From Caballeronia sp. NK8 (GTDB lineage Bacteria; Pseudomonadota; Gammaproteobacteria; Burkholderiales; Burkholderiaceae): DNA of 64,000 bases. Below, piece by piece: positions 9,281 through 39,667 of the stretch (its first letter is position 1; the number at the start of each line of letters is the position of its first letter). A program made the translations under genes and the position numbers. Where the stretch lies: the NCBI RefSeq assembly GCF_018408855.1, contig NZ_AP024324.1, forward strand, positions 434,001-498,000. The letters run 5' to 3'. The notes beneath the pieces were generated by a model. The model was not told the DNA's origin. It made no database searches and saw only the letters and a list, made by a program, of their open reading frames with translations.

Positions 9281-9444
9281 GCACAGCCTACCTCCGATTT
9301 CGGGGCGTTGCCCCTTTCCCGCGAAGGCGATGGGCAGTCGAGTGGCGTCTTGCCGAACTGACTAATCAAACAGAAAATGCAATATCAAGACAACCTGGTC
9401 CGGCAAAACAGTAACTATCGGCAGCGGAAATCCCGGGGCGCAGT

Positions 9445-9534
9445 TTAATACTGCATCAGCGATTTGAAGTCGGCGACGACAACGCCGGTGCAGGCCCCAA
9501 AGATACAAGTCAGATAGCCAACCCAACCTAGCAT
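9445..9534 (-). CDS. possible 29-residue membrane microprotein
   Basis: An ATG at 9534 preceded by GGAG seven bases upstream opens a frame of 29 residues. Its first 20 residues (MLGWVGYLTCIFGACTGVVV) would form one transmembrane helix; a short polar tail ADFKSLMQY follows, then TAA. It lies in the 380-base gap between two LysR genes, where nothing else is visible. No relative is recognised. Ribosome-binding spacing and helix pattern support it, but the size leaves room for chance. A larger minus-strand ORF overlapping it (9362-9616) has poor protein character. Confidence 0.3.
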   Translation of the reverse strand: MLGWVGYLTCIFGACTGVVVADFKSLMQY

Positions 9535-9663
9535 GAACAAGCTCCACACATGCACGCGATCGCCCCAAGACGCAAAAGCGCCACCACTCTCCCCCCTTCA
9601 CGCGGCGCCGCCTCAAAGAATGCCCGCTAAATATCGACGATCGCGCGCACTAACTTGAAGAGG

Positions 9664-10584
9664 TCAATGCTCGACTTCCGGATTCATATCGAGCGCAAAA
9701 GGACCACAACTGAATTGATCTTTCAGGAACTCGAGGCACACCCTCACCTTCGCAGAATTCGCTGACCTGCTGCTCAGGACCGCCCAGATGTCGGCGGGCT
9801 CCGAGTACTGCGCCAGGACGCGCACCGCCTGTCCGCTGCGAATCGCATCGGCAATATCCCATACCGACAGCAAACAGATGCCTTTCCCGTCGAGACACCA
9901 GTTTCGGACTACGTCGCTCATGTTCGATCCGAAGCGGCTCGTCACTTTCACGGATTCGAAGCCCTTCGGCCCCTCGAGACGCCAGGTGCCGAACGCCTGC
10001 TCACGCTCCCGGTACAGCAGGCATTCGTGTTCCGCGAGTTCGGCCAGCGAAGCCGGAGCGCCGTGCCGGCTCAGGTAGTCCGGCGCGGCAACCAGCAAGC
10101 GGCGGTTGCTGGCGAGGCGATGCGCTATCAGCTGCGGCTGCGTCGGATCCCCGAAGCGAATGTCGATGTCGATATTCTCGTTGATGAGATCGGTGCGCCG
10201 GTCGAGCAGCTCCAGCCAGACATCGAGCTTCGGATACTGATTGCCCAGACTCGAAAGGATCGGCGCGACATGCAGCCGGCCCAGACGCAGGCTCGTGCTG
10301 ATGCGCAGCAGTCCGGAGAGTTCGCTGCGCGTGCTTTGCAAAGTCTCCGTCATCGACGTCACGTCTTCCAGAATCCTTCGCGCCCATTGATAGGCGATCT
10401 CGCCATCTGCGGTGATCGCGACACGCCGCGTGGTGCGATGAAACAGCCGCACTGCAAGCGTCGCTTCGAGAATCGCAATCCGCTTGCTGACGTGCGCCGG
10501 CGTGGTGCCAAGCTCTTTTGCCACGGCGGCAAAACTCGCCCGCCGCGCCGCGATGCAAAAGACTTTCAGGTCGTCGATATCCAT
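9664..10584 (-). CDS. LysR-family transcriptional regulator
   Basis: A 306-residue LysR-type regulator starting at the ATG at 10584. The DNA-binding domain is at residues 3-62 (VFCIAARRASFAAVAKELGTTPAHVSKRIAILEATLAVRLFHRTTR, of which the middle is the recognition helix) and the effector domain covers about 90-290. It is divergent from the MFS/isomerase/dehydrogenase operon beginning at 10710, with a 125-base intergenic region, so it is the likely regulator of that operon. The inducer is probably the transported sugar-like compound or a product of it. Confidence 0.9.
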   Translation of the reverse strand: MDIDDLKVFCIAARRASFAAVAKELGTTPAHVSKRIAILEATLAVRLFHRTTRRVAITADGEIAYQWARRILEDVTSMTETLQSTRSELSGLLRISTSLRLGRLHVAPILSSLGNQYPKLDVWLELLDRRTDLINENIDIDIRFGDPTQPQLIAHRLASNRRLLVAAPDYLSRHGAPASLAELAEHECLLYREREQAFGTWRLEGPKGFESVKVTSRFGSNMSDVVRNWCLDGKGICLLSVWDIADAIRSGQAVRVLAQYSEPADIWAVLSSRSANSAKVRVCLEFLKDQFSCGPFALDMNPEVEH

Positions 10585-10709
10585 ACACCGATTCTAAACG
10601 AAGTGTGAATGATGAAACAACGAAAGCTCCGTTGATATCCAAAGTGTTGTCTATAGAATCGCCTCAGATGCTGCCTTCGAGGCGGACTTTCACAACAGTG
10701 GAGACAACG

Positions 10710-12059
10710 ATGAAATACGCATCAGGCGTTCAGGCTGGCGACGCGGCGTCCGCGACCGCGCGCCGCACGCGCGCTCGCTTCGGCATTCTCGGATTGCTCG
10801 CAGTCGGCACGATGATCAACTATCTCGACCGCAGCGTCGCTGGCATCGCCGCGCCGAACATGAGCCACGACCTCGGACTGACTCCCGCGACGATGGGTGT
10901 CATCTTCTCGGCGTTCTCGTGGACCTATACGGCTTCGCAGATTCCGGGCGGCATTCTGCTCGACCGCATCGGCACCAAATGGACGTATTTCTTCGCCCTG
11001 ACGCTGTGGTCGCTCTTCACCGGCCTGCAAGGGCTGGCGCTGGGCTTCGTCACGCTGCTGATCCTGCGCCTCCTGGTGGGCATGGCCGAAGCGCCCTGCT
11101 TTCCGACCAACAGCCGGGTCGTCGCCACCTGGTTTCCACAGAGCGAGCGGGCACGCGCGACAGGCGTCTACACGTTCGCGGAATACGCGGGGCTGGCATT
11201 CCTCAGCCCGCTTCTCTTCTGGCTCGAGCACCGTTACGGATGGCGCGCGCTGTTCGGAATCGTGGGCGCTGTGGGGATCGTTTTCGGCTGGATCTGGCTC
11301 GCGCGCTTCAGGGAACCGCATGAGTCCAGCCGTGCGAATCGCGCGGAACTGCAACATATCGAAGCCGGCGGCGGCGTGGTGAGTAGCGGCCGCATCCATG
11401 TGCGCTTTCAGTGGTCGCACCTCGTCGCGATCCTGAAAGAGCGCCGCATGCTCGGCATCTGCATCGCACAGTTCGCGAGCAATGCGACCAACGTTTTCTT
11501 TCTCACGTGGTTTCCGACCTATCTGGTGACGGAACGCCATATGCCCTGGCTCAAGGTCGGGATACTCGCCGTGCTGCCCTTTATCGCGGCTTCCGTCGGC
11601 ACGCTCGCGGGCGGCTGGATTTCCGACGCGATGCTTCGTCGAGGCATGTCGCTCAACTGGGCCCGCAAGCTGCCTGTGACGGCGGGCCTCCTCACCGGAT
11701 CGACCATTGTCCTCGCGAACTTCGTCGACTCGACGGAAGCGGTGATCGCCATTCTGTGCGTCGCGTACTTTTCGCAGGGACTCTCGGCGCTGGCGTGGAT
11801 GATCGTCTCCGATATCGCGCCGAAAGGACTGCTCGGCCTGAGCGGCGGCATCTTCAACCTGTTCGCGAATGCTTCCGGAATCGTGACGCCGCTCGTCATC
11901 GGGCTGATCGTCAACGCCACCGGATCGTTCGTGTATGCGCTGGCGTTCGTCTCCGCCATCACCCTGGTGGGCGCGTTCTGCTACCTCTTCGTGGTCGGCG
12001 ACATCAAGCGCATCGAACTCGAAGCCTCTTCTTTCGAAAGCAAGGATGTCAATCAATGA
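10710..12059 (+). CDS. MFS transporter, anion:cation symporter (ACS) type
   Basis: A 449-residue inner-membrane protein with about 12 transmembrane helices. The N-terminal segment MINYLDRSVAGIAAPNMSHDLGL and the GILLDRIGTKW loop (MFS motif A region) match the GudP/ExuT-like ACS family that imports sugar acids such as glucarate, galactonate or hexuronates with protons. The ATG at 10710 has GGAGA upstream; upstream in-frame codons are non-coding. Its stop overlaps the next start by four bases (ATGA), so it is translationally coupled to the isomerase gene. A sugar acid or polyol substrate is inferred from the family and the neighbours. Confidence 0.87.
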   Translation: MKYASGVQAGDAASATARRTRARFGILGLLAVGTMINYLDRSVAGIAAPNMSHDLGLTPATMGVIFSAFSWTYTASQIPGGILLDRIGTKWTYFFALTLWSLFTGLQGLALGFVTLLILRLLVGMAEAPCFPTNSRVVATWFPQSERARATGVYTFAEYAGLAFLSPLLFWLEHRYGWRALFGIVGAVGIVFGWIWLARFREPHESSRANRAELQHIEAGGGVVSSGRIHVRFQWSHLVAILKERRMLGICIAQFASNATNVFFLTWFPTYLVTERHMPWLKVGILAVLPFIAASVGTLAGGWISDAMLRRGMSLNWARKLPVTAGLLTGSTIVLANFVDSTEAVIAILCVAYFSQGLSALAWMIVSDIAPKGLLGLSGGIFNLFANASGIVTPLVIGLIVNATGSFVYALAFVSAITLVGAFCYLFVVGDIKRIELEASSFESKDVNQ

Positions 12060-14524: not shown

Positions 14525-14956
14525 CTAACGATCGTACGAATATGCGCGACTGAAGGGCGCCGACGCGTGGCGCAGTGCATCGCGCAGGGCGACGCACTGC
14601 GTGATGCCCGAACTGCGCGCCTCTTCGAAACCGCCCTCCCCGGCGCTCACCGCGACGACGCGATGCGCAGGCGTCGCGAGCGTATGAAGCGCCATCGCAT
14701 AGCGCGACTCGCTTGCACCCGATGACAGAATCGATGAGAAGTACGTAACACCTTCGTCGCCGAGCTTGTCGGCGATGGCGTCGTTCAGGCGCGCGGCATC
14801 GAGGTCGCTCACCAGCGCAAGCGGATAGCCGTCGTCACGCATGGTCTGCAGGAAGCGTTTGAGGGAGGCGTCATGCACGTGCGCCGCCTGTTTCGTGTCC
14901 TTGCCGCCTGCGGTCCAGACGGAGTCCATGTTCGCCACGATCGCGTCGATTGCCAT
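14525..14956 (-). CDS. HAD-superfamily-like protein with degenerate catalytic motifs
   Basis: A 143-residue protein starting at the ATG at 14956, preceded by GGGAG. The order of segments follows small HAD phosphatases: an N-terminal strand IVANMDSVWTAGG where motif I (DxDxT) would be, YPLALVSDLDAARL as the motif II strand with Ser, and HRVVAVSAGEGGFEEARSSGI where motif IV (DSPGGVxAARAAG) would be. Motif I keeps one Asp, and the acidic pair of motif IV is replaced by SAGE, so classical phosphatase activity is doubtful. It precedes the double-glycine peptide gene on the same strand by 232 bases. No close family is recognised. Confidence 0.5.
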   Translation of the reverse strand: MAIDAIVANMDSVWTAGGKDTKQAAHVHDASLKRFLQTMRDDGYPLALVSDLDAARLNDAIADKLGDEGVTYFSSILSSGASESRYAMALHTLATPAHRVVAVSAGEGGFEEARSSGITQCVALRDALRHASAPFSRAYSYDR

Positions 14957-15149
14957 TTGCTGTCTCCCAGAGTCGCTGAATGCGTGTGTCGCCAGAGGTA
15001 TGAGCGCTATTGACGACTTCGAGAGCAAAACTATAAGGCCCCTGAAATATTTGCGCTATTTAGCATTTATAACCGACTCATAAGTTTTCACTAATGTGAG
15101 AGACGACGACCTTCCGTCAGTCGAGGTCAGAGCCGCCCGCGCAGGGCGT

Positions 15150-15183
15150 GACTTTGACCGGCGGCATGCCGCCGGTCAAAGTC
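15150..15183. terminator. perfect 34-base palindrome downstream of the aldehyde dehydrogenase gene
   Basis: Positions 15150-15183 read identically on both strands (left arm GACTTTGACCGGCGGCA). It lies 15 bases past the stop of the minus-strand aldehyde dehydrogenase gene and can form a long GC-rich stem. There is no T tract on either side, so it is a terminator or mRNA-stabilising hairpin, or possibly a protein-binding palindrome. Confidence 0.5.
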
Positions 15184-15197
15184 GACTGCGCGCGACG

Positions 15198-16661
15198 TCA
15201 GCCGCGCGACACGATGGCGTGGCGCAATTCCTGATAGCTGCGCAATCCGGCGACGCCGAGTTCGCGGCCCATGCCGCTCAGGCCGAGTCCGCCCCAGCAC
15301 ACCTGCGGAAAGATCAGTTGTGGCGTGTTGATCCACACGAGGCCCGCGCGCAGCGCTCGGCGATAGCGGCGCGCGGCATCTTCATCGCGCGTCACGACGG
15401 TCGCGACGAGTCCGTACCGCGTGTCGTTGGCGAGCGCGATGGCTTCGTCGTCGGTGCGGAAGGATTTCACGCACGCGACCGGTCCGAACACCTCTTCGGT
15501 CCATAACACGTTCGCCGTATCCGGTTCCGCGATGACCACGGGCGCCATGAAAAAGCCTTCTGCGCAGGCATTTTCGAGCGCACCGCTGAACGCGACAGCC
15601 GCGCCGCCCGCGATGCCTTGCTCGAGCAGCGCCTGAACGCGCTCACGCTGGGCGCGCGACACGAGCGGCCCCATCGCGACATTGTCGATGTGAGGCGGCG
15701 CGACTACGAGCGCGCGCACGGCCGCTTCGAAAGCCGCGACGAACTTGCGATAGACATCGTCGTGCACGATGATGCGCGACGTGGCCGAGCACATCTGCCC
15801 CGCGTTCGTGAACGCGCCGCCCACCGCGAGCGCGACCGCATGCTCGACGTCCGCGTCGGCGCGCACGATCAGCGCGGACTTGCCGCCGAGTTCGAGCGTC
15901 AGCCGCTTCATGTCCTGCGCAGCGGCCTGCATGACCTTGCGGCCGACCGCCGTGCTGCCGGTGAACGAAATCTTGTCGACGAGCTGATGCGCCGCGAGCA
16001 GCGCGCCCACCTCGCCGCCGCCGTTCACGAGATTCACGACGCCATCGGGCACGCCCGCCGCCGTCATGATCTCCGCGAGCCGATGCTCGACCGGCGAGGT
16101 GAATTCGGACGGTTTCAGCACTGCCGTGCAGCCGGCCGCGAGCGCGGGCGCGATCTTCCACGCGGTCGTGACCATCGGGAAATTCCACGGCACGATCAGT
16201 GCGGCCACGCCCACCGCTTCGTAATGCCGTTCGCCTGTCACGGTGTCGTCGGGCAGCGCGAGCGTATCGGCGGCGAAGAGCGACGCGTCGGCGCACAGGT
16301 CCGCGTAGTAATCGAAAGTGGCGATGGCGTCGCTCACGTCGGTGTCGGCTTCGAGCGGCGGCTTGCCGCTCACCCGCTGCTGCATCGAAGAGAGCTGCGC
16401 GCGGTTCGCCGCGAGCAGCTCGGCGATCCCGCGCAACACCTTGCCGCGCGCGGCGGGCGGCTGGTTGCGCCATGCATCGAGCGCGCCGTGCGCGGCACTC
16501 ACGGCGGCATCGACTTGCGCGGCATCGGCGTGTTCCTGCCAGCCGATGATCTCGCCCGTGGAAGCATTGTGGATCGCGTTGCCCGCTTCCCGGTTCGACG
16601 CGTCGACACGCATGCCCGCGATCGTCGCGGCGGGCAGCGCGAATGAAGTGTGATTGGTCAT
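15198..16661 (-). CDS. NAD(P)-dependent aldehyde dehydrogenase (amino/guanidino-aldehyde type)
   Basis: A 487-residue aldehyde dehydrogenase of the betaine/aminobutyraldehyde group. Visible landmarks are VPWNFPMVTTAWKIAPALAAG (oxyanion Asn), KPSEFTS (cofactor Lys), ISFTGSTAVGRKV, LTLELGGKSALI (general-base Glu) and TNAGQMCSATSRI (catalytic Cys). The ATG at 16661 follows AGGACG; the in-frame extension upstream is the antisense of the next gene. It starts 17 bases after the ureohydrolase stop, so the two form an operon: the dehydrogenase would make an omega-guanidino or amino acid, and the ureohydrolase would remove urea from a guanidino compound. Confidence 0.85.
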   Translation of the reverse strand: MTNHTSFALPAATIAGMRVDASNREAGNAIHNASTGEIIGWQEHADAAQVDAAVSAAHGALDAWRNQPPAARGKVLRGIAELLAANRAQLSSMQQRVSGKPPLEADTDVSDAIATFDYYADLCADASLFAADTLALPDDTVTGERHYEAVGVAALIVPWNFPMVTTAWKIAPALAAGCTAVLKPSEFTSPVEHRLAEIMTAAGVPDGVVNLVNGGGEVGALLAAHQLVDKISFTGSTAVGRKVMQAAAQDMKRLTLELGGKSALIVRADADVEHAVALAVGGAFTNAGQMCSATSRIIVHDDVYRKFVAAFEAAVRALVVAPPHIDNVAMGPLVSRAQRERVQALLEQGIAGGAAVAFSGALENACAEGFFMAPVVIAEPDTANVLWTEEVFGPVACVKSFRTDDEAIALANDTRYGLVATVVTRDEDAARRYRRALRAGLVWINTPQLIFPQVCWGGLGLSGMGRELGVAGLRSYQELRHAIVSRG

Positions 16662-27360: not shown

Positions 27361-29703
27361 TCAGTGCGCTGCATGCCTGACCTGAGCGGAGGCCTGTTCG
27401 AGGTCCGTCCACGCCGGCTGGTCCGGCGCATATCGCGCCCGAATATAGGCCGCGAGTTCGGCCATCTGCCTGTCGTCGTAGACATCACCGAAGCCGGGCA
27501 TATATCCCAGCTCTGCCGTGGCCGGACTGTCGATGCCGTTGTGAAGTACATGCAGCAAGTTGTCGGGCCGGCTCTGCGCCACGCTGGTATTGAGACCCAT
27601 CAGCGGCCTCACGCCCAGATGCCCGACGCCGCCCGATGCCGCGTGGCAGACCGCACACGCCGTCTCGAAGGTCTGCCGCCCGCGCTCCAGGCCCATGACG
27701 CTGACCACATCGGCGCCATTTGACTGCTTTTGCGCCGCGTGGGCGGCAGCCGCCTCGTCGACCTGCGGCGACAAGGACGTGATGTAGTGAGCGATCGCTT
27801 TTACATCGGACTCCGGAAGTTCGGACAGCCCGGTCACAACCGGACCCATCGGACCCGCTGCCACGCCATGCTCTTTCGAAAAGCCGGTGCGAAGGTAGTC
27901 GAACAGCGCCTTCTCGGTCCAGGGCACGGGTCCGCGATGGCCGACCAAAGCCGGCGCGTCCCAGCCTTCCGCCTCGCCGCCGGCCAGATACGCCAGACCG
28001 CCCTGCTCCGCGCCCAGCCGGTTGCGCGGTGTGTGACACGCGCCGCAATGCGCCGCGCCATCGACGAGATATTTGCCGCGATTCCACAGCGCCGATTTCG
28101 ATGCATCGGGCTTGAACTCGCTGTCGTCATGAAACAGCCAGTTCCATCCGGCGACCGCAGGGCGCAGGTTCATCGGAAACGGCAGGCTCGTCTTCGGCGG
28201 TGCGTGCTTCACCGCTGGCTGCGACATCAGATACGCGTAAAGCGCCAGCATGTCCGGCTCGCTCATCTTCGCGAAAGCTGTATAGGGGAAAGCGGGATAG
28301 AGATGCGTGCCATCGCGCGCGATACCCTTGCGCATGGCGCGCTCGAACGCTGCATACGACCAGAGGCCGATGCCCGTCTCCGGGTCCGGCGTGATGTTGG
28401 TCGAGTAGATGGTGCCGAACGGCGTTTCGAGCGCGAAACCGCCAGCATTCTTCTGTCCGCCCGGCGCCGTGTGACACACCGCGCAGTCGCCGGCCAAGGC
28501 GATCTGCCGGCCGCGTTCGAGCGTCGCCGCGCTCCATGTCGACGCGCCGAGGCTGCCCGGCGCGATAGGCGCGATCTCTCGCGGACCCGGAATGATCGCG
28601 CACGCAAGACCGACGAGGCCGCCGATGAATCCCGCGATGCCGCCTCCGGCGAGCAGCTTTTTGATGCGGCCAGGACGCGGCGCGGCCACGCCGTGATGAA
28701 TTGGCTGCGGAGGCTCCGTGCCGGCCAGTTTCGCCTGCAGGTGCTGCGAATCGAACGGCGGTTGCCTGAAACGTACGCCGGTTGCATCGAAGATCGCGTT
28801 TGCGATGGCGGCGACCGCCGGCGCCGCGGCCCGCTGCGCGCCCGGTGTCGGCAACGCATCCGGCGTGCCTTGCGTGCTCAGGGACGCCGGGCCGGCAGCC
28901 GCCGCGATATCGAACGACATCGGCGCGGACGCGGCAGCTTCGTCATGCGCGGGTCGCGCGCTCGACGCGTGGCCAAGCGCCAGCGACACCGCGCTCTCGA
29001 TGAGCGCATGCGGCACGCCATGCAAGACCGGCAGGCTGGCGGAGCCTTCGCCGTATCCGGCGACGACGCGGCGCACCGCGACATCCCCGGTCTGCCGATG
29101 CACATCGATATCCACGACCCACGCGGACCAGTTCGGCTCGCCTTCCCGCTCGCCGTCCATCGCGAAACCACGGCCACTGAACCACTGCGAACCGGCGTCG
29201 GTACGCGTCTTGCGTCCCCACGCCGCGCGTTCCGTGACCATCCGCACGACTTCCCGCGCGCCCGCATCTTCATTCCTGTCGAGATGACGCAGGCGCAATT
29301 CGACGGGATCGAGGGCAAGCTCGCTCGCCGTCTCGTCCATGAAGGACTCGCGCGCAAACACGTGCGCATGCTCGGGAACGGCGCGCGCCGGGCCGTCGAA
29401 CGTCAGCGAGGCGTGCGCGTGGCGGTACAGCGTGCTTTGCGGGGACGCGGGTTGCCAGTCCGGCGCGAACAGACCTTTTCCCGATGCGCCCGCGGACTCG
29501 TCCAGCGACACGCGGTATCGATAGCTTCGCAGCACGCCCGACGGTGTCGTATCGACGCTCACTTCCAGCGAGGCGAGACAGGCCTCCTGGCCGGCCGGCC
29601 AGCGATAGGTGTGCGTCCGATGCGTGGTCGGCTCCGGGCCCGTCGTCCCGGTGTGCGGCGGCACATCCGCGATATCCACGCTATCGCTCGTTTTACTGTT
29701 CAT
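27361..29703 (-). CDS. nicotinate dehydrogenase cytochrome c subunit with vestigial molybdopterin domain (NicB-like)
   Basis: A 780-residue protein in two parts. Residues about 30-335 match only the C-terminal half of an isoquinoline/nicotinate-type Moco subunit: HVFARESFMDETASELALDP and AIANAIFDATGVRFRQPPF are clear. The catalytic GxGE segment expected before AIANAIF is replaced by PTPGAQRAAAPAVA, so it should not carry out molybdenum chemistry. After one transmembrane helix (about 345-372) come three CxxCH heme sites: CAVCHTAPG, CGACHTPRN and CAVCHAASG. The ATG at 29703 overlaps the nicA stop by 11 bases. It probably passes electrons from NicA to the respiratory chain. An intact Moco subunit is encoded at 35137-37443. 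Confidence 0.82.
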   Translation of the reverse strand: MNSKTSDSVDIADVPPHTGTTGPEPTTHRTHTYRWPAGQEACLASLEVSVDTTPSGVLRSYRYRVSLDESAGASGKGLFAPDWQPASPQSTLYRHAHASLTFDGPARAVPEHAHVFARESFMDETASELALDPVELRLRHLDRNEDAGAREVVRMVTERAAWGRKTRTDAGSQWFSGRGFAMDGEREGEPNWSAWVVDIDVHRQTGDVAVRRVVAGYGEGSASLPVLHGVPHALIESAVSLALGHASSARPAHDEAAASAPMSFDIAAAAGPASLSTQGTPDALPTPGAQRAAAPAVAAIANAIFDATGVRFRQPPFDSQHLQAKLAGTEPPQPIHHGVAAPRPGRIKKLLAGGGIAGFIGGLVGLACAIIPGPREIAPIAPGSLGASTWSAATLERGRQIALAGDCAVCHTAPGGQKNAGGFALETPFGTIYSTNITPDPETGIGLWSYAAFERAMRKGIARDGTHLYPAFPYTAFAKMSEPDMLALYAYLMSQPAVKHAPPKTSLPFPMNLRPAVAGWNWLFHDDSEFKPDASKSALWNRGKYLVDGAAHCGACHTPRNRLGAEQGGLAYLAGGEAEGWDAPALVGHRGPVPWTEKALFDYLRTGFSKEHGVAAGPMGPVVTGLSELPESDVKAIAHYITSLSPQVDEAAAAHAAQKQSNGADVVSVMGLERGRQTFETACAVCHAASGGVGHLGVRPLMGLNTSVAQSRPDNLLHVLHNGIDSPATAELGYMPGFGDVYDDRQMAELAAYIRARYAPDQPAWTDLEQASAQVRHAAH

Positions 29704-30299: not shown

Positions 30300-31619
<1,320 letters not shown>

Positions 31620-31666: not shown

Positions 31667-31695
31667 TTGTCGTTTTATAACGTACACGCTAGACT
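31667..31695 (+). promoter_or_regulatory. nicE operon promoter with operator inverted repeat
   Basis: A -35-like TTGTCG (31667-31672) and a -10 TAGACT (31690-31695) are 17 bases apart, 35 bases before the nicE start. The spacer holds AACGTACACGCT (31679-31690), a copy of the nic repeat in the same position as in the nicC promoter. Confidence 0.6.
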
Positions 31696-31729
31696 TCAAT
31701 GCAATTCCCCTCACCGGCCAGGAGTATCC

Positions 31730-32482
31730 ATGTTCAAGACCTATCGCATCGGCCAGATCGTGCCGAGTTCCAACACGACGATGGAAACCGAGATTCCCGC
31801 GATGCTGCGCCTGCGCGAAGCCATCCGGCCCGAGCGCTTCACGTTTCATTCGAGCCGCATGCGCATGAAAAAGGTCGTCAAGGAAGAACTGGCTGCGATG
31901 GACGCCGAATCGGACCGCTGCGCGATCGAACTGTCGGATGCGCGTGTCGACGTGCTCGGTTACGCCTGCCTCGTCGCCATCATGGCGATGGGTCGCGGCT
32001 ATCACCGCGTGTCGCAGGAGCGCCTGACGAAGCACACCACCGAGAACGGTGCTCACGCGCCCGTGCTCACCAGCGCAGGCGCACTCGTCGATGCATTGAA
32101 AGTGATTGGCGCGAAGCGGATCGTGGTCGTCGCCCCATACATGAAGCCGCTGACGGAGCTCGTCGTGGATTACATCGGCAGCGAAGGCTACGAAGTCATC
32201 GACTGGCGGGCGCTCGAGATTCCCGACAACCTCGAAGTCGGGCGTCATGACCCGTCGCGGCTGCCGGACATCGTCTCGAAGATGAAGTATCAGGACGCTG
32301 ACGCCATCGTGCTCTCGGCGTGCGTTCAGATGCCATCCCTGCCTGCGGTTGCAAAGGTCGAAGCGATGACCGGCAAGCCCGTCATCACGGCCGCCATCGC
32401 CACCACCTACGCGATGCTGCGCCATCTCGATCTGGAGCCCATCGTTCCCGGCGCCGGCGCGCTGCTGTCCGGCGCGTACTGA
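31730..32482 (+). CDS. nicE: maleate isomerase
   Basis: A 250-residue member of the Asp/Glu racemase superfamily that converts maleate to fumarate, the last step of nicotinate breakdown. The two conserved cysteines lie in GYACLVAIMAMG (about residue 83) and LSACVQMPSLPAV (about 199); the N-terminal IGQIVPSSNTTMETEIP is typical of maleate isomerases. The ATG at 31730 is preceded by GGAG. It is first in the plus-strand operon with nicD, nicX, nicF and the Moco subunit, under the operator-bearing promoter at 31667-31695. Confidence 0.92.
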   Translation: MFKTYRIGQIVPSSNTTMETEIPAMLRLREAIRPERFTFHSSRMRMKKVVKEELAAMDAESDRCAIELSDARVDVLGYACLVAIMAMGRGYHRVSQERLTKHTTENGAHAPVLTSAGALVDALKVIGAKRIVVVAPYMKPLTELVVDYIGSEGYEVIDWRALEIPDNLEVGRHDPSRLPDIVSKMKYQDADAIVLSACVQMPSLPAVAKVEAMTGKPVITAAIATTYAMLRHLDLEPIVPGAGALLSGAY

Positions 32483-32512
32483 GCCGCCCGGCAACTTTTG
32501 CGGAGCCACATC

Positions 32513-33355
32513 ATGTCATCCACGTTTGTTCACGGCGGCAATGTGTTCGCCAACGGCATTCGCCAGCATTACCTGCGTTATGGACCCAACGCGGGTGAGC
32601 GTTCGACGCGGCCGGTCATCGTCCTGATTCCGGGCATCACCAGTCCGGCGATCACCTGGGGCTTCGTCGGCGAAGTCCTCGGAAGCCGCTTCGATACCTA
32701 TATTCTGGATGTGCGCGGGCGCGGGCTTTCGTCGGCGTCGGACACGCTCGACTACAGTCTAGACGCGCAAGCCGACGACGTCGTCGCGTTCGTCAAGGCG
32801 CTGGGCCTCGACGCCTTCAGTCTTCTCGGCCACTCGATGGGCGCGCGCATCGCCGCGCGCGCGGCGGGACGCATCGAGCGCGGGCTCAGGAGCGTCGTGC
32901 TGGTCGATCCGCCCGCGTCCGGCCCGGGGCGCCGTCCTTATCCTTCGCAGTTGCCCTGGTACGTCGATTCGATGGCGCTCGCGCGCAAGGGCATGGACGC
33001 GCAAGCCATGAGCCAGTTCTGTCCGACGTGGACCTTCGAGCAGCGCCAGTTGCGCGCGGAATGGCTGCATACGTGCGATGAACGCGCCGTGCTGGCGTCG
33101 TTCAAGGGCTTTCATGAAGACGACTTCTTCGCCGATGCAGCGCGCCTGAACGTGCCGTCGCTTCTCATCACCGCCGAGCGCGGCGACGTGGTCCGGCCGG
33201 AAGACGTCGCCGAATTGCAGCGCGCCACGCCTTCGATGCTGCACACGCGCGTGCCGGATGCAGGCCACATGATCCCATGGGACAACGAAGCCGGCTTCTA
33301 TGCGGCGCTGGGCGATTTCCTCGGCGCGCCCGTGTCCCTGAACAAGCCTGCGTGA
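32513..33355 (+). CDS. nicD: N-formylmaleamate deformylase
   Basis: A 280-residue alpha/beta hydrolase that splits N-formylmaleamate into maleamate and formate. The N-terminus (FVHGGNVFANGIRQHYLRYG) closely matches NicD of P. putida as I recall it. The nucleophile elbow is LLGHSMGARIAAR, the oxyanion region IPGITSPAITWGF, and the catalytic His is in DAGHMIPWDNEAG. The ATG at 32513 has GGAG seven bases upstream, better than a TTG five codons earlier. It is second in the operon, 30 bases after nicE. Confidence 0.92.
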   Translation: MSSTFVHGGNVFANGIRQHYLRYGPNAGERSTRPVIVLIPGITSPAITWGFVGEVLGSRFDTYILDVRGRGLSSASDTLDYSLDAQADDVVAFVKALGLDAFSLLGHSMGARIAARAAGRIERGLRSVVLVDPPASGPGRRPYPSQLPWYVDSMALARKGMDAQAMSQFCPTWTFEQRQLRAEWLHTCDERAVLASFKGFHEDDFFADAARLNVPSLLITAERGDVVRPEDVAELQRATPSMLHTRVPDAGHMIPWDNEAGFYAALGDFLGAPVSLNKPA

Positions 33356-33383
33356 GCGCACCGCACATTCCTTGGAGATGACG

Positions 33384-34427
33384 ATGGCTATCAGCGACTA
33401 TCAACTCATCGAAGCGTGGAAGGAAGTGCTCACGCTCTCGAAGCTCGAACGCGGGCAGACGGTCACCATTCTGACGAGCGCGGGCACGCATCCTCAGACC
33501 TTGTCGTGCGCGCTCATCGCAACGCAGTCGATGGGCGCGATCGTGAACCGGCTGGACCTGCCGCCCATCAACGGCGAGAAAGGCTTCAGCCGCGATTCGC
33601 TCGCGTATCTCGGCACGACGCCGCTCACCGGCAATCAGGCGGCGATCGCCGCGCTCAAGAACAGCGATCTCGTGCTGGACCTGATGACCTTGTTGTTCTC
33701 GCCGGAGCAGCACGAAATCCTGCAGTCGGGGACCAAGATCCTGCTCGCGGTGGAGCCGCCCGAGGTGCTCGTGCGCCTCGTGCCGACGGTCGCGGACCGC
33801 ACCCGCGTGCTCGCCGCGACCGAGCGCATCAAGGCGGCGCGTCAGATGCACGTGCATTCCGACGCGGGCACGGACTTCACCTGCCCGATGGGCAACTTTC
33901 CCGCCATCGCCGAATACGGTTTCGTCGATGAACCCGGCCGCTGGGACCACTGGCCGAGCGGCTTCGCGCTGACGTTTCCGAACGACAGGACCGCGCACGG
34001 CAAGATCGTCATCGACCGGGGCGATATTCTGCTGCCGCAAAAGCACTACGTCAGCGAGCCGATCACGCTCACGGTGGAAGGCGGCTATGCGGTGCGGATC
34101 GAAGGCGGCACGGATGCGGCGCTCTTGCGCGACTACATGGAAACCTTCGACGATCCCGAGGGCTATGCGATCTCGCACATCGGCTGGGGGCTGCAGCCGC
34201 GTGCGCGCTGGTCGACGCTCGGTCTCTACGATCGCGAAGCCACCATCGGCATGGACGCGCGTGCGTTCGAGGGCAACTTCCTGTTCTCGCTCGGACCGAA
34301 CAACGAAGGCGGCGGCGATCGCACGACGACCTGCCATATCGACATCCCGCTGCGCCATTGCACCGTCTCTCTCGACAACGAGGTCGTCGTCCGGGATGGC
34401 CGCGTGCTCGACGCCAACCACGCATAA
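33384..34427 (+). CDS. nicX: 2,5-dihydroxypyridine 5,6-dioxygenase
   Basis: A 347-residue Fe(II) extradiol-type dioxygenase that opens the ring of 2,5-dihydroxypyridine to N-formylmaleamate. It belongs to the small NicX family, whose metal ligands are two His and one Asp near the C-terminus; here ISHIGWGLQP and TTTCHIDIPLRH supply them. The ATG at 33384 is set by GGAG six bases upstream; an ATG two codons earlier is less well spaced. Length matches P. putida NicX (about 350). It is third in the operon. Confidence 0.92.
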   Translation: MAISDYQLIEAWKEVLTLSKLERGQTVTILTSAGTHPQTLSCALIATQSMGAIVNRLDLPPINGEKGFSRDSLAYLGTTPLTGNQAAIAALKNSDLVLDLMTLLFSPEQHEILQSGTKILLAVEPPEVLVRLVPTVADRTRVLAATERIKAARQMHVHSDAGTDFTCPMGNFPAIAEYGFVDEPGRWDHWPSGFALTFPNDRTAHGKIVIDRGDILLPQKHYVSEPITLTVEGGYAVRIEGGTDAALLRDYMETFDDPEGYAISHIGWGLQPRARWSTLGLYDREATIGMDARAFEGNFLFSLGPNNEGGGDRTTTCHIDIPLRHCTVSLDNEVVVRDGRVLDANHA

Positions 34428-34436
34428 AGGCACGAC

Positions 34437-35090
34437 ATGAACGATCTCACCCAGCATGCGGAAGCGCATGTCTACCGGCAACAGGGCTTCGGCACGCCGA
34501 TGGCGCCCAAGGGCCGGGTCGCGCTGCTGATCGTGGATCTCGTGGTTGGCTTCGCCGACCCCGCGGTCTTCGGCGGCGGCAATATCCCGCAGGCGATCGA
34601 GCGCACGAAGCACGCGCTCAAGGCCGCGCGCGAGAACGGCTGGCCCGTCGCGCACAGCCGCATCGTCTACGCGGCCGACGGCAGCGACGACAACGTCTTC
34701 TCGCTGAAAGTCCCCGGCATGGCGACGCTCACCGAGGACAATCCCAACAGCGCCATCGTCGCGGAACTGACTCCGGCAAAGGGCGAACTGGTGGTTCGCA
34801 AGACGGTTCCGTCGGCATTCTTCGGCACGCAACTGACGCCGTGGCTCGCGCAGCAAGGCATCCAGACGCTGCTGGTGGCGGGCGCGGTGACGAGCGGCTG
34901 CGTGCGCGCGAGCGTCGTCGACGCCATGTCGTTCGGCTTCCGACCGTTCGTGCTGTCGGACTGCGTCGGCGATCGCGCGCTGGCGCCGCACGAAGCGAGT
35001 CTCTTCGACATGGCGCAGAAATACGCGACCGTACTTCCGCTGTCCGACGCGCTCGCGGCGATCTCGGCAGCCGAAGCCGAAGCGCGGTAG
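34437..35090 (+). CDS. nicF: maleamate amidohydrolase
   Basis: A 217-residue isochorismatase-family hydrolase that converts maleamate to maleate and ammonia. The catalytic triad is readable: Asp in ALLIVDLVVGFADP, Lys in LVVRKTVPSAFFGTQL and Cys in AGAVTSGCVRASVVDAM with the cis-peptide region before it. The gap after nicX is nine bases, so co-translation is likely. Family, length and place in a complete nic operon make NicF the only sensible call. Confidence 0.9.
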   Translation: MNDLTQHAEAHVYRQQGFGTPMAPKGRVALLIVDLVVGFADPAVFGGGNIPQAIERTKHALKAARENGWPVAHSRIVYAADGSDDNVFSLKVPGMATLTEDNPNSAIVAELTPAKGELVVRKTVPSAFFGTQLTPWLAQQGIQTLLVAGAVTSGCVRASVVDAMSFGFRPFVLSDCVGDRALAPHEASLFDMAQKYATVLPLSDALAAISAAEAEAR

Positions 35091-35136: not shown

Positions 35137-37443
35137 ATGCCCGAGTGCATGACGAGGAAGAACGTGAATCGCGCCGATCTGCTTGCCCGAAACGGCCGCC
35201 TGGCCATCATTCGCCAGCCGCTCAGCCCGGTCGCCCCCGCGCGGGGCCAGCCGGGAAGCCCTTCGACCTTCGTGCCGGATGTGCCCGAGGTGTTCGTGGC
35301 CGTTCTCGACGACGAAAGCATCCTCGCGTTCAACGGGCATGTGGATCTGGGCACGGGCATTCGCACGTCGCTCGCGCAGATCGTGGCGGAAGAGCTCGAC
35401 GTTCCCGCCGAACGCGTGCGCATGATCCTCGGCTCGACCGCCGCGACGCCGAATCAGGGGCCGACCATCGCCAGCGCCACGATCCAGATATCGGCGGTTC
35501 CGCTTCGCTGCGCGGCGGCGCAGGCACGGCTCGCCCTCCTCGACCTGGCCGCGCAACGCATGGACGTCGCCATCGAGCGCCTCACGGCGGCGAACGGGCG
35601 TGTGTTCCTCAAAGACGCCGATGCCACCGGCGGCTGTACTTTCGGCGAGCTGGTGAAAGACCGGCAGATCACGGCCGAACTCGATACGCAGGTCAAGACG
35701 AAGGACCCGGCCGACTATCGGCTCATCGGCCGTTCGTCGAGACGTGTGGATATGCCTGCCAAAGCCACCGGCCAGCTGACCTTCGTGCACGACGTGCGCG
35801 TGCCCGGCATGCTGCATGGCCGCGTGGTGCGGCCGCCTTACAGCGGCATCGACTCGGGTCCGTTCGTCGGCCGGTCCCTGATTTCGGTCGATGAATCTTC
35901 CGTCGCCGATATCCCCGGACTTCGCGCGGTGGTCGTCGTCGGCGATTTCGTGGGCGTCGTGGCCGAGCGCGAGGAGTTCGCGGCACGCGCCGCGCGCAGA
36001 CTCAAGGTGCAATGGCGCGAAACGCCGGCCCTGACGTCGATGGACGATATCTGGCAAGCCATCTCGAATGCGCCAGCGACGCGCCGGCTTCTGCTCGAAG
36101 AAGGCGATGTCGAACGCGTGCGCGACGCGACAGGCACCACGACCCTTTCGCGCACTTACGTGTGGCCTTATCAGATGCACGGATCCATCGGGCCATCGTG
36201 CGCGGTCGCGGATTACCGCGAGCCCGGCGACGGACGCATCACGGTCTGGTCCGGCACACAGAATCCGGTTTCGTTGCGACATGACCTCGCGAAACTCGTC
36301 GGACGCAGCGAAGCCGACTTCGACATCGAACGCATGGAAGCGGCCGGATGCTACGGCCGCAACTGCGCGGACGATGTCTGCGGCGATGCGCTGCTGCTCT
36401 CACGCGCGGCCGGGCATCCGGTCCGGGTCCAGTTGACGCGTCAGGACGAGCACCTTTGGGAACCCAAGGGCACCGGGCAGGTGATGCAGGTCACGGGCAC
36501 GGTCACGGACAGCGGCGAACTCGTCGGCTACGACTTCTCGACGCGCTATCCGTCCAACGATGCGCCGCTGCTCGCCCTGCTGCTGAGCGGTGTTCAGCCG
36601 GCTGTATCCGGTGTGTTCGAAATGGGCGACCGCACGGCTGTGTCGCCCTACGAGTCGCCGAACCGGCGTTTCGTCTGCGAGGATCTGGCGTCGATCGTGC
36701 GTGCGTCGTGGCTGCGCGGCGTCTCGGCGCTGCCCAATTCGTTCGCCCACGACGCGTTTGCCGATGAGTGCGCGGCGCTGACGGGCACCGACCCGCTCGA
36801 GTATCGCATCCGGCATCTGAGGGACGATCGGGCGATCGACCTCCTGCGCGCCGTCGCTCAGCGCGCCGGCTGGCAGGCTCGGCCAGAGCGTATCGAGAAG
36901 CACGGCCGCCTCGTGCGCGGACGGGGCATCGCCTACGCGCGCTATGTGCATAGCCGCTTTCCCGGCTTCGGCGCGGCGTGGGCTGCGTGGATCGTCGATC
37001 TCATGGTCGACAGATTGAGTGGCGAGATCACCGTCGAGCGCGTCGTGATCGGACAGGACACGGGCACGATGATCAACCCGGATGGCGTGCGTCACCAGAT
37101 TCACGGCAATGTGATCCAGGTGCTGAGCCGTTCATTGAAAGAGCGCGTGCGTTTCAGCGAAGGCAGGACCGCTGCGCGCGACTGGTCCAGCTACCCGATA
37201 CTCACCTTCGCCGAGGTGCCCGCGATCGACGTGGTGCTCATGCCCCGGCAAGGCGAACCGCCGATGGGTGCGGGCGAATCGGCTTCGGTGCCCGGCCCTG
37301 CCGCGCTGGCCAACGCCGTCTTCGATGCAACCGGCGTGCGATTCTTCGCCCCGCCGTACACGCCGGACGCCATCCGCGCCGGTCTGGACGAAGCCGGGCG
37401 GCGCTACACGTCGAACGAGGACGCTCGCACCGTTTCCTCTTAG
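35137..37443 (+). CDS. molybdopterin-binding large subunit of nicotinate dehydrogenase (xanthine oxidase family)
   Basis: A 768-residue Moco subunit with a full set of domains: an N-terminal part with FNGHVDLGTGIRTSLAQIVAEEL, the cofactor region with TPNQGPTIASATIQ, and the C-terminal PPMGAGESASVPGPAAL, whose GAGES carries the catalytic Glu. It has no heme or iron-sulfur motif, so it needs NicA and the cytochrome subunit encoded 6-10 kb away. It is last in the nicE-D-X-F operon. The start is uncertain: ATG 35137, ATG 35149 or GTG 35164, the last with the best ribosome site (AGGA). NicB of P. putida joins Moco and cytochrome parts in one chain. Confidence 0.85.
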   Translation: MPECMTRKNVNRADLLARNGRLAIIRQPLSPVAPARGQPGSPSTFVPDVPEVFVAVLDDESILAFNGHVDLGTGIRTSLAQIVAEELDVPAERVRMILGSTAATPNQGPTIASATIQISAVPLRCAAAQARLALLDLAAQRMDVAIERLTAANGRVFLKDADATGGCTFGELVKDRQITAELDTQVKTKDPADYRLIGRSSRRVDMPAKATGQLTFVHDVRVPGMLHGRVVRPPYSGIDSGPFVGRSLISVDESSVADIPGLRAVVVVGDFVGVVAEREEFAARAARRLKVQWRETPALTSMDDIWQAISNAPATRRLLLEEGDVERVRDATGTTTLSRTYVWPYQMHGSIGPSCAVADYREPGDGRITVWSGTQNPVSLRHDLAKLVGRSEADFDIERMEAAGCYGRNCADDVCGDALLLSRAAGHPVRVQLTRQDEHLWEPKGTGQVMQVTGTVTDSGELVGYDFSTRYPSNDAPLLALLLSGVQPAVSGVFEMGDRTAVSPYESPNRRFVCEDLASIVRASWLRGVSALPNSFAHDAFADECAALTGTDPLEYRIRHLRDDRAIDLLRAVAQRAGWQARPERIEKHGRLVRGRGIAYARYVHSRFPGFGAAWAAWIVDLMVDRLSGEITVERVVIGQDTGTMINPDGVRHQIHGNVIQVLSRSLKERVRFSEGRTAARDWSSYPILTFAEVPAIDVVLMPRQGEPPMGAGESASVPGPAALANAVFDATGVRFFAPPYTPDAIRAGLDEAGRRYTSNEDARTVSS

Positions 37444-37460: not shown

Positions 37461-37904
37461 TCAGCTTTCGTCGAGTTCGAGCATCTTGCGCAGCAAGTAC
37501 TGCAGCGCCACCCGCTCGCCCGGATTGAGCTTGCCGTAGGTGCGCTCCGTGACCTGCGCGGCGAACGGCACGGTCGCGTCGATCAGCGCTTCCCCCTGGG
37601 GCGTGGCGTTCACCACCAGCTTGCGGCCATCCGTCGGGTCCGGCACGACTTGCACCAGCGCGCGCGCCTTGAGGCGATCGACGACGCCACGGATCGTCGC
37701 CTGGTCGATCGCCGTCGTCTTGACGATGTCGTTGAGCGAACATCCCCTGCTCTCCTTGACCGCGGACAACGCCACGAACTGCGCGGCGGTCAGTTGCGAA
37801 TCGGGAATCGCCTCCTGAAAGATCGCGACGTGGCGCTGATACGCACGACGCAACAGGTGACCGATCTGGTCATGAAAGTCGTAATCGTCGTTGGGAAGCG
37901 ACAT
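37461..37904 (-). CDS. nicR: MarR-family regulator of the nicotinate cluster (NicR-like)
   Basis: A 147-residue MarR protein. The winged helix region is LTAAQFVALSAV through CSLNDIVKTTAIDQATIRGVVDRLKARALV, with the wing PDPTDGRKLVVNATPQG. NicR of P. putida is a MarR repressor relieved by 6-hydroxynicotinate; position, family and the shared inverted repeats at all nic promoters support the same role here. The start is set at the ATG at 37904 (MSLPNDDYDF); longer in-frame starts upstream have no protein character. It is convergent with the Moco subunit gene and divergent from the transporter. Confidence 0.85.
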   Translation of the reverse strand: MSLPNDDYDFHDQIGHLLRRAYQRHVAIFQEAIPDSQLTAAQFVALSAVKESRGCSLNDIVKTTAIDQATIRGVVDRLKARALVQVVPDPTDGRKLVVNATPQGEALIDATVPFAAQVTERTYGKLNPGERVALQYLLRKMLELDES

Positions 37905-38098
37905 ATCCGGAGAGGCGGTTTCAAAAGAGTGAGGCGCGTGGCGACGCGCTTGCAGGGCTTCCATTTTAACGGACCGACTCCGAAGCAAGATTCGATGATC
38001 GACGGCGGCCGACGAAAGGGCCACCGCGGCGTGTTGCGCCACCTCGACGACACCTGCACGAAGATGGTGCCGGTGATTGTCGTCTCGGTGCATATTTG

Positions 38099-38110
38099 AG
38101 CGCATACGCT
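38099..38110. promoter_or_regulatory. nic operator copy upstream of nicR
   Basis: AGCGCATACGCT is a copy of the 12-base nic repeat, 195 bases upstream of the nicR start, in the 458-base nicR/transporter region. It suggests autoregulation through a long leader. Confidence 0.5.
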
Positions 38111-38279: not shown

Positions 38280-38362
38280 GTATTTTGACATGCTATACAG
38301 GATCCTGCGGACGCAAAACACATGTTTTCGTCAAGGAACCTTCACCTAACCAGGGTCGCCCC

Positions 38363-39667
38363 ATGTCAACTGTTCAATCTGGCGTAAGCATCGCGTCGAG
38401 AGACACGCATCAAGAGCTATACCGGAAGGTCACGTTTCGCCTCATCACGCTGTTCTGCCTGTGTTATTTCGCGGCGTACCTGGACCGCGTGAACATCGGT
38501 CTGGCAAAGCTTCAGATGCTCGACGCATTGAAGTTCGGCGATGCCGTCTACGGACTCGGCGCGGGTCTGTTCTTCGTCGGCTACGTGCTGTTCGAAGTCC
38601 CGAGCAATCTCATCCTTCAGCGCGTGGGCGCGAAGTTCTGGATTGCGCGCATCATGATCACGTGGGGTCTGTTGTCGGGCGCGACGATGTTCGTGCATAC
38701 GCCGATGCAGTTCTACATCGTGCGATTCCTGCTGGGCGTGGCCGAAGCAGGCTTCCTGCCGGGCGTGCTGCTCTACCTCACGCAGTGGTATCCGGATGCG
38801 CGGCGTGCACGGATCGTGGCGCTGTTCATGGTCGGCCTGCCGATGTCGAGCATGGTCGGCAGCCCGATCTCCGGCTGGATCATGCGCTTCTTCGATGGCA
38901 CGCATGGACTCGGCGGCTGGCAATGGCTCTTTCTGCTCGAAGCATTGCCTTCCATCCTGCTGGGCTTCGCGGTGCTGCGCTGGCTGCCGAACACCATCGA
39001 ATCGGCGAAGTGGCTGACCGACGATGAAAAGAAGACGCTGCGCGCGGAACTCGTCGAGGAAGGGGCGGAGCACAAGAGCCACAAGCTGAGCGAAGCCTTC
39101 TCCAACCGTAAGGTGTGGTCGCTCGGGCTCATCGATCTGTGTGTGCTGCTGGGCCTGTACGCCTTGAGCTTCTGGCTGCCGACCATTCTTCGTGACACGG
39201 GCGTCACGGACTCGTATCACATCGGCTGGCTGATGGTCATTCCGAACGCCGCCGCCGTGGTCGGCACCTTGCTGTGCGGATCGAGCTCGGACCGGGCGCG
39301 CGAGCGGCGCTGGCATATCGTCGTGCCATTCGCCGTGGCTGCGGCTGCGCTGGTGGTCGCCGGTGCGACGACGCCGAGTACCGCGATGACCGTCGTGCTC
39401 TTCTCGCTCGTGAATGCAGGCGCTGCAGCAGCGATGCCCGTGGTATGGGCGCTTCCTTCGACGTTTCTCCGGGGCACAGCGGCGGCCGGCGGAATTGCTT
39501 TTGCGTGCTCGATTGCGAACGTGGGTGGCTTCGGAAGCACGTATCTCATCGGCTATCTTCGCGACACGTTCCACACGCAAAGCGCCGGGCTCTACGCGTT
39601 CGCCGCGTTCATCCTGTTCGGTTGCGCGCTGGCGCTCGCATTCCCGAAGAAGCTGGTCAATCGTTGA
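38363..39667 (+). CDS. nicT: MFS transporter of the nicotinate cluster (ACS family, NicT-like)
   Basis: A 434-residue, roughly 12-helix transporter. YLDRVNIGLAKLQML is the ACS-family helix 1, and VLFEVPSNLILQRVGAKFWIARIMITWG in part covers helix 2-3 with motif A. It resembles tartrate/phthalate-type and nicotinate-type MFS carriers; the nic operator upstream and the adjacent nicR make nicotinate, or 6-hydroxynicotinate, the expected substrate. The ATG at 38363 is chosen from the family N-terminus; the in-frame region upstream is promoter DNA. The symbol is by context. Confidence 0.8.
   Translation: MSTVQSGVSIASRDTHQELYRKVTFRLITLFCLCYFAAYLDRVNIGLAKLQMLDALKFGDAVYGLGAGLFFVGYVLFEVPSNLILQRVGAKFWIARIMITWGLLSGATMFVHTPMQFYIVRFLLGVAEAGFLPGVLLYLTQWYPDARRARIVALFMVGLPMSSMVGSPISGWIMRFFDGTHGLGGWQWLFLLEALPSILLGFAVLRWLPNTIESAKWLTDDEKKTLRAELVEEGAEHKSHKLSEAFSNRKVWSLGLIDLCVLLGLYALSFWLPTILRDTGVTDSYHIGWLMVIPNAAAVVGTLLCGSSSDRARERRWHIVVPFAVAAAALVVAGATTPSTAMTVVLFSLVNAGAAAAMPVVWALPSTFLRGTAAAGGIAFACSIANVGGFGSTYLIGYLRDTFHTQSAGLYAFAAFILFGCALALAFPKKLVNR

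Follow-up and report, generated by a model that had tools for sequence, protein, structure and literature searches.

In the NicAB-type nicotinate dehydrogenase of P. putida, NicB is reportedly one chain with full Moco and cytochrome parts. The aldehyde dehydrogenase complex 8GY3 presumably stems from Gluconobacter and comprises what we take to be a small FeS chain. In the nicotinate dehydrogenase 3HRD (source presumably Eubacterium barkeri), a single centre is formed from both Moco pieces, each of them live. The glutamate of the GxGE motif is the catalytic residue in such Moco domains.

The locus described here encodes a variant of nicotinate dehydrogenase of the NicAB type in which a dead Moco domain is conserved. 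It is located in the window, i.e. the whole 64,000-nucleotide stretch of Caballeronia sp. NK8 DNA that was analyzed (source genome of 9.2 Mb on 7 contigs). Throughout the text, B denotes the 780-aa cytochrome subunit with its Moco remnant, M the separate 768-aa Moco subunit, and A the product of nicA.

Organization of the locus

The frame of B runs unbroken through 780 codons on the minus strand (an orientation that the earlier note on this DNA had left unstated), and its first 11 nt coincide with the last 11 nt of nicA, located on the same strand. All three CxxCH sites read previously in the 780-aa protein are present (Table 1), and the cytochrome c region was matched both by Pfam (E 2.2e-24) and by the cytochrome subunit 8GY3_A (E 8.7e-100). 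The nearest named homologues of B are found in Caballeronia pedi (94%) and C. fortuita (91%). The putative anchor resembles a glycine zipper (GGGIAGFIGGLVGLACAII) and is alike in the rows of Burkholderia, Paraburkholderia, and Pandoraea; such a segment may allow tight helix packing against a partner.

B is part of a nic cluster, as A, C, E, D, X, F, and M are all found within about 10 kb. Judged by homology, this cluster is presumably functional in the strain. For the nicX-like ORF, the NCBIfam search gave no match. The same layout was found in a Paraburkholderia record (L079), where the regulator is annotated as BpsR, the B homologue as 'c-type cytochrome', and the M homologue as 'molybdopterin-dependent oxidoreductase'. 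Translation of M probably starts at Met5 (35149, giving 764 aa), because the open frame of close relatives opens at the matching Met; positions 35137-35148 would then precede the start codon.

Table 1. Features of the nic locus, in positions of the window
Feature	Position	Strand	Evidence
B: triheme cytochrome subunit with N-terminal Moco-domain remnant, 780 aa	27361..29703	-	ORF, Pfam, alignment
Triheme cytochrome c region of B, residues 385-770	27394..28551	-	Pfam, 8GY3_A match
B heme site 3, CAVCH, residues 683-687	27643..27657	-	sequence
B heme site 2, CGACH, residues 553-557	28033..28047	-	sequence
B heme site 1, CAVCH, residues 407-411	28471..28485	-	sequence
Putative membrane anchor of B, Gly-rich hydrophobic segment, residues 351-373	28585..28653	-	basic charges N-terminal to segment
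Dead Moco-domain remnant of B, residues ~26-330	28714..29628	-	BLASTP, hhalign, dN/dS
nicA-like 2x[2Fe-2S] subunit, 186 aa	29693..30253	-	Pfam Fer2 and Fer2_2
nicC-like FAD monooxygenase	30300..31553	-	NCBIfam; homologues annotated FAD-dependent monooxygenase in L079, L082
nicE-like maleate isomerase	31667..32482	+	homologue in L079 annotated 'maleate isomerase'
nicD-like alpha/beta hydrolase	32498..33355	+	NCBIfam, neighbourhood comparison with L079
nicX-like 2,5-dihydroxypyridine dioxygenase	33372..34427	+	annotation of Azospirillum L082 homologue
nicF-like isochorismatase-family amidase	34437..35090	+	NCBIfam, neighbourhood comparison with L079
M: separate intact Moco subunit, 768-aa ORF	35137..37443	+	Pfam MoCoBD_1/2; 8GY3_C E 4.3e-47
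Possible Tat-signal relic at M N terminus, NRADLLARNGRLAIIRQP...	35167..35241	+	alignment with SRRAFLKAGG signals of split relatives
GCYGRN loop of M, missing in B	36346..36363	+	motif scan
GAGES motif of M, missing in B	37267..37281	+	motif scan
MarR-like ORF	37461-38105	-	own reading and gene order in L079
MFS-like transporter ORF	38285-39667		own reading and gene order in L079

A Moco domain without its active site

The N-terminal 330 residues of B align with the C-terminal part of M (BLASTP: 32% over 251 aa, E 5e-25), and profile-profile comparison with hhalign gave a probability of 99.7% for this relationship. In M numbering, and with secondary-structure names taken from a weak model of M (pLDDT 54.0), the remnant has kept (i) the YxWP strand 341-344, (ii) strands near 449-467, (iii) helices near 532-577, (iv) strands near 592-642, and (v) C-terminal helices near 719-750. 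Gone are residues 1-~335, ~345-447 with the GCYGRN loop, ~468-525 with the RASWLRG loop, and most of ~643-718, which holds NPDGVRHQ and GAGES. The description of the remnant as the C-terminal half of a Moco subunit was therefore roughly right, but the half is not a clean one, as internal blocks were lost too.

The earlier note had also read that the catalytic GxGE segment is not retained. This region is indeed deleted in the 780-aa gene, and neither G[AS]GES nor GCYGRN was found in any of the 41 aligned B homologues. Both motifs are present in 36/36 M proteins, 9/9 fused NicBs, and 3/3 split-type Moco subunits. A motif scan of 65 loci covered 63 of the 65 genomes carrying B, leaving out G212 and G122 (contig ends in the cytochrome); it detected GCYGRN in the B frame of none of these loci. 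G.GE[SAT] strings occurred in three of the 65 frames, none of them at the catalytic place, as judged for two by their own letters and their position in the cytochrome and for one by alignment. A glutamate occupies the catalytic column in 5 of 46 B proteins (the 41 and five further ones), never within GxGE. Remains of the GCYGRNCADD loop are still partly recognizable in five rows, four from f221 and one from f238 (e.g. GLGRHCGD). Of MoCoBD_1, only the tail was seen in B, below threshold (18.9 bits compared with a cut-off of 27), and MoCoBD_1 and MoCoBD_2 are not complete. B is not a functional XDH-type Moco subunit. Nevertheless, 35 alignment positions are conserved to at least 90% in both the dead (41) and the live (48) domains.

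We considered whether the remnant and M form one composite Moco centre, or whether the remnant still binds cofactor. A parallel would be 3HRD, which is listed with large and medium molybdopterin subunits, i.e. with a Moco subunit spread over two chains. However, M has both GCYGRN and GAGES itself, motifs that the remnant has retained in none of the 41 homologues. As M is complete, a composite active site is very improbable.

Comparison with relatives, proposed earlier as a check, found the same deletion conserved across several genera, with none of the 41 aligned homologues full length. The shortened gene recurs in many separately sequenced genomes and nothing was found to suggest that a full-length NicB had been missequenced or misassembled, so that we regard the chance of such an artefact as negligible and rejected it. 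A recent local deletion was likewise rejected, as the same architecture is seen at 57-94% identity in several genera.

Distribution of B and M

At the E-value limits of the searches, B was found in 65 sampled genomes in total. The genus contributed 24 of its 58 genomes, the family sample (200) added 33, the order sample (300) three, and sampling at class (369) and phylum level (398) together five, the latter from two families outside the order. Named carriers include Burkholderia arboris, B. cenocepacia, B. multivorans, and B. stagnalis as well as Paraburkholderia, Caballeronia, and Pandoraea species. In G122, only the cytochrome was seen because the contig ends there. The pairs of B and M from the two families beyond the order of the window (f221 and f238; L167-L171) display a GCYGRN-like loop that is less decayed.

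A separate M with an open frame of at least 728 aa accompanies B in 64 of the 65 genomes. Within the genus, M was detected in 23 of the 58 genomes, all among the 24 carriers of B; none of the 58 had M without B. In the lone exception (G031, L145:13111-14046), M is truncated to 311 aa and an unrelated ORF lies beyond it (14547-15659); matches to the cytochrome gene and to the remainder of the nic cluster are preserved. Single stops were reported inside four M alignments. In G023, G010, and G170, the alignment overruns the end of the frame; in G465, M has an open frame of 1002 aa despite the reported stop. Among the 28 genomes with a fused NicB (9 + 19), none yielded a second Moco match at E 1e-150; each had one match, inside the fused gene.

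This pattern bears on the notion that M and B act in separate complexes, e.g. M with another electron acceptor. In its favor, the two genes are about 5.4 kb apart in opposite operons, and in G071 they were found on different contigs (L119 and L146), so linkage of B and M is not required. Their co-occurrence, their shared nic cluster, and the recurrence of the main clades of M in the trees of B speak against this notion, which we consider improbable.

Probable origin from a duplicated fused NicB

Fused homologues of 1183-1215 aa, which we take to be NicB of the P. putida type, were found in Azospirillum L082 and in L112-L116 and agree with a one-chain NicB. Their order of parts (Moco, anchor, cytochrome) is the same as in B. 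If a fused NicB is defined by a live Moco part and a triheme cytochrome in one chain, B has the cytochrome but lacks the live Moco part. By descent, B belongs to the fused NicB lineage, since its cytochrome and anchor are homologous and in the same order.

In the Moco tree, M forms one clade (SH-aLRT 98 with 36 rows, and 97 with 32 rows including two more families) located beside a group of fused NicBs, with a joint-node support of 95 and 97, respectively. Because M, although without a cytochrome tail, itself looks derived from a fused NicB, we infer that a fused nicB was duplicated and that complementary losses followed in B and M, a scenario supported by the tree. The main clades are common to the trees of M and B. 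In free cytochrome trees, B fell into two groups, so that a second origin is possible; a single origin of B was not rejected (AU p 0.435, and p 0.19 in a second test). When dead and live Moco domains were combined in one tree, a branch of about 1.5 separated the two, which makes the placing of the dead domains unsure. The dead domains of g3, f4, and f49 group together on a branch of this length, where long-branch effects are likely, and B plus M as a single clade was not rejected (p 0.276).

The earlier note had envisaged a NicB ancestor that lost its N-terminal Moco half. What stands of this proposal is the descent, the loss of the catalytic half, and the retention of the rest in frame beside nicA. 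A single deletion does not account for it: the alignment of 41 proteins showed a shared N-terminal truncation but also internal losses, and their depth varies by lineage.

Erosion of the dead domain and selection

Three stages can be told apart among the B proteins. The least eroded remnants are those of g3, f4, and f49 (960-1043 aa), which have retained 66-76% of residues 190-320 and 86-100% of residues 441-560. A middle stage is represented by a second Caballeronia clade (881-929 aa), with about half of residues 190-320 and 90-96% of residues 321-440 retained. In the minimal stage, comprising the clade of the window, Burkholderia, Paraburkholderia, Pandoraea, and others (760-885 aa), little is left before residue ~441. 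Residues 51-180 are nearly all lost in every B (0-12% aligned; n = 41). The proteins of f221 and f238 (906-1004 aa) resemble the first stage.

Selection was estimated from dN/dS (Nei-Gojobori) for 12 pairs, i.e. from short segments, without confidence limits, and with dS >1 in some. For the remnant core (residues 102-165), five pairs from the Caballeronia clade of the window gave values of 0.125, 0.197, 0.153, 0.152, and 0.164. In the same clade, dN/dS was 0.14-0.21 for residues 166-217 and 0.06-0.19 for residues 294-330; for comparison, M gave 0.09-0.10 and the cytochrome 0.07-0.08. Constraint was uneven over residues 31-101 (0.12-0.70) and loose in the loop 218-293 (0.25-0.47 in this clade and 0.15-0.48 over all pairs). 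For the core, pairs from Caballeronia, Pandoraea, and Burkholderia ranged from 0.07 to 0.20; pairs from g3 and f49 gave 0.53, 0.54, and 0.32, with 0.05-0.17 for residues 294-330. By these estimates, the minimal remnant in the lineage of the window has a core under constraint, somewhat weaker than that on the live enzyme, and constraint is looser in the larger remnants. As the core in g3 and f49 is weakly constrained, much of the remnant there may be ballast.

Possibly, the remnant as a whole is passive debris, useless since M arose and undergoing stepwise deletion, with only a short linker needed before the anchor. Several of the above observations would fit such a history, namely the differing depth of erosion between lineages, the weak core constraint in g3 and f49, the loosely constrained loop, and the fact that the most uniformly constrained piece (294-330) adjoins the anchor. 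They have to be weighed against the persistence of the remnant in all 41 aligned species, though split relatives have cytochrome-only forms, against the near-invariant positions common to dead and live domains, and against the low core dN/dS in the Caballeronia, Pandoraea, and Burkholderia pairs. On balance, we consider that passive debris is an unlikely explanation, yet the most serious of the competing ones.

Membrane side and export signals

Basic residues flank the cytoplasmic side of a membrane segment (positive-inside rule). In B, K+R were more frequent before than after the anchor in 41/41 proteins, and the same was found for 9/9 fused NicBs. The charge bias taken together with this rule places the remnant, presumably, on the cytoplasmic side of the anchor and the hemes outside. 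Among 45 NicB-type N termini (M and fused NicB), an RR pattern occurred in three, none of which had a hydrophobic core; M and the fused NicBs appear to have no convincing export signal.

A different picture was obtained for the split loci with a standalone cytochrome. All 18 of them carry a Tat-type RR signal on the Moco subunit (the Moco gene of one, L163, is itself broken), and a nineteenth locus (L176) agrees. The standalone cytochromes align with B from residue 343 on only, and residues 1-345 of the B remnant did not match any of the 19 standalone cytochrome ORFs up to E 1. The N terminus of M aligns with the Tat signals of the split relatives (NRADLLARNGRLAII under SRRAFLKAGGLLLV) and looks like a relic of such a signal. 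It has neither an RR pair, one arginine being gone, nor a hydrophobic core; three relatives still have RR.

A possible docking role of the remnant

Our leading interpretation, to which we assign a probability of roughly 0.55, is that of a duplicated and split nicotinate 6-hydroxylase, in which the retained dead domain would serve to dock NicA and M, the live Moco subunit, onto the cytochrome. According to this interpretation, an ancestral fused NicB consisting of Moco domain, membrane anchor, and triheme cytochrome would have been duplicated. One copy (M, 768 aa) would have lost its cytochrome tail but stayed a Moco enzyme; in the other (B, 780 aa), anchor and cytochrome would have been retained, while the Moco domain died and eroded. 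NicA and M would hydroxylate nicotinate and pass electrons via the 2Fe-2S clusters toward the hemes of B, both being functions that we assign from the known family. The dead domain would hold NicA and M at the cytoplasmic face of the cytochrome subunit, and would have been kept because it lies on the same membrane side as these two proteins. The docking surface would most likely be the one through which, in fused NicB, either the protein's own domains or two Moco domains contacted each other.

Docking is favored mainly because exported (Tat) enzymes pair with remnant-free cytochromes and inside enzymes with the remnant. With all three subunits exported, a handle on the inside would be superfluous for the cytochrome, and where the enzyme stays inside, B would retain one. 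The contrast is correlational, as both types also differ by descent. A docking scaffold for a separately encoded Moco subunit had been suggested in the earlier note; it survives as our leading guess, and the near-universal presence of a separate M agrees with it, with docking itself still something that we infer. AlphaFold2 models built from 13-row alignments (mean pLDDT 39.5 for B and 54.0 for M) were too poor for use. More tentatively, a duplicated respiratory molybdenum enzyme might have shared out its work between the copies, the Moco domain of the dead copy becoming a pseudo-enzyme adaptor. This adaptor would pair with the live subunit at the cytoplasmic face and link it to a periplasmic triheme cytochrome, and the ancestor would have shifted the enzyme from outside to inside through loss of the Tat signal whose relic is left.

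The docking interpretation leaves the electron path from the inside enzyme to the outside hemes unexplained. It sharpens the question of how electrons pass from a Moco enzyme lacking an export signal to hemes that must lie outside the membrane. From fused live through dead long and dead medium to dead minimal forms, the active-site loops were lost and the frame was kept. This series may reveal which parts of a Moco hydroxylase serve assembly rather than catalysis, and since lineages are at different depths of erosion, a minimal adaptor could be read by comparison. For the Caballeronia, Burkholderia, Paraburkholderia, and Pandoraea records analyzed here, this also means that the catalytic NicB is encoded by the separate gene annotated as 'molybdopterin-dependent oxidoreductase' rather than by the neighbor of nicA.

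Comparison with known systems

Fused NicB (NicAB, P. putida type) shares with B the order of Moco part, anchor, and triheme cytochrome as well as the location next to nicA; in Azospirillum (L082), it adjoins nic genes as B does. In contrast to fused NicB, the Moco part of B is dead and 2-3 times shorter, and a separate Moco gene is present. A fused-type nicB relative on a plasmid of Pseudomonas sp. BYT-5 (L081, ORF 9539-11995) also has no N-terminal Moco half. Unlike B, it keeps a live-type C-terminal half together with the cytochrome; it is located near IS6100 (8784-9548).

The 8GY3 complex consists of separate chains, as found here, and is the best solved match for both the cytochrome of B and M. 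Residue 8 of its 444-aa cytochrome subunit aligns with residue 353 of B onward, which leaves no room for a Moco remnant. The cytochrome of this AldFGH-type split trimer thus starts at the anchor, whereas B has ~350 residues before it. A Tat signal on the Moco subunit, presumably a trait of the AldFGH type as judged from the split relatives, is not found in M. The split, Tat-exported three-gene relatives themselves (L118, L120, L131, L166, and others) carry homologues of the A, M, and cytochrome genes at a single locus; their Moco subunit carries RRxF/LL and a hydrophobic core, both absent from M.

Finally, 3HRD is, like the complex proposed here, a Moco nicotinate hydroxylase, and its Moco subunit is divided, as indicated by the chain names. 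In contrast to 3HRD, the locus described here combines a complete chain with a dead one.
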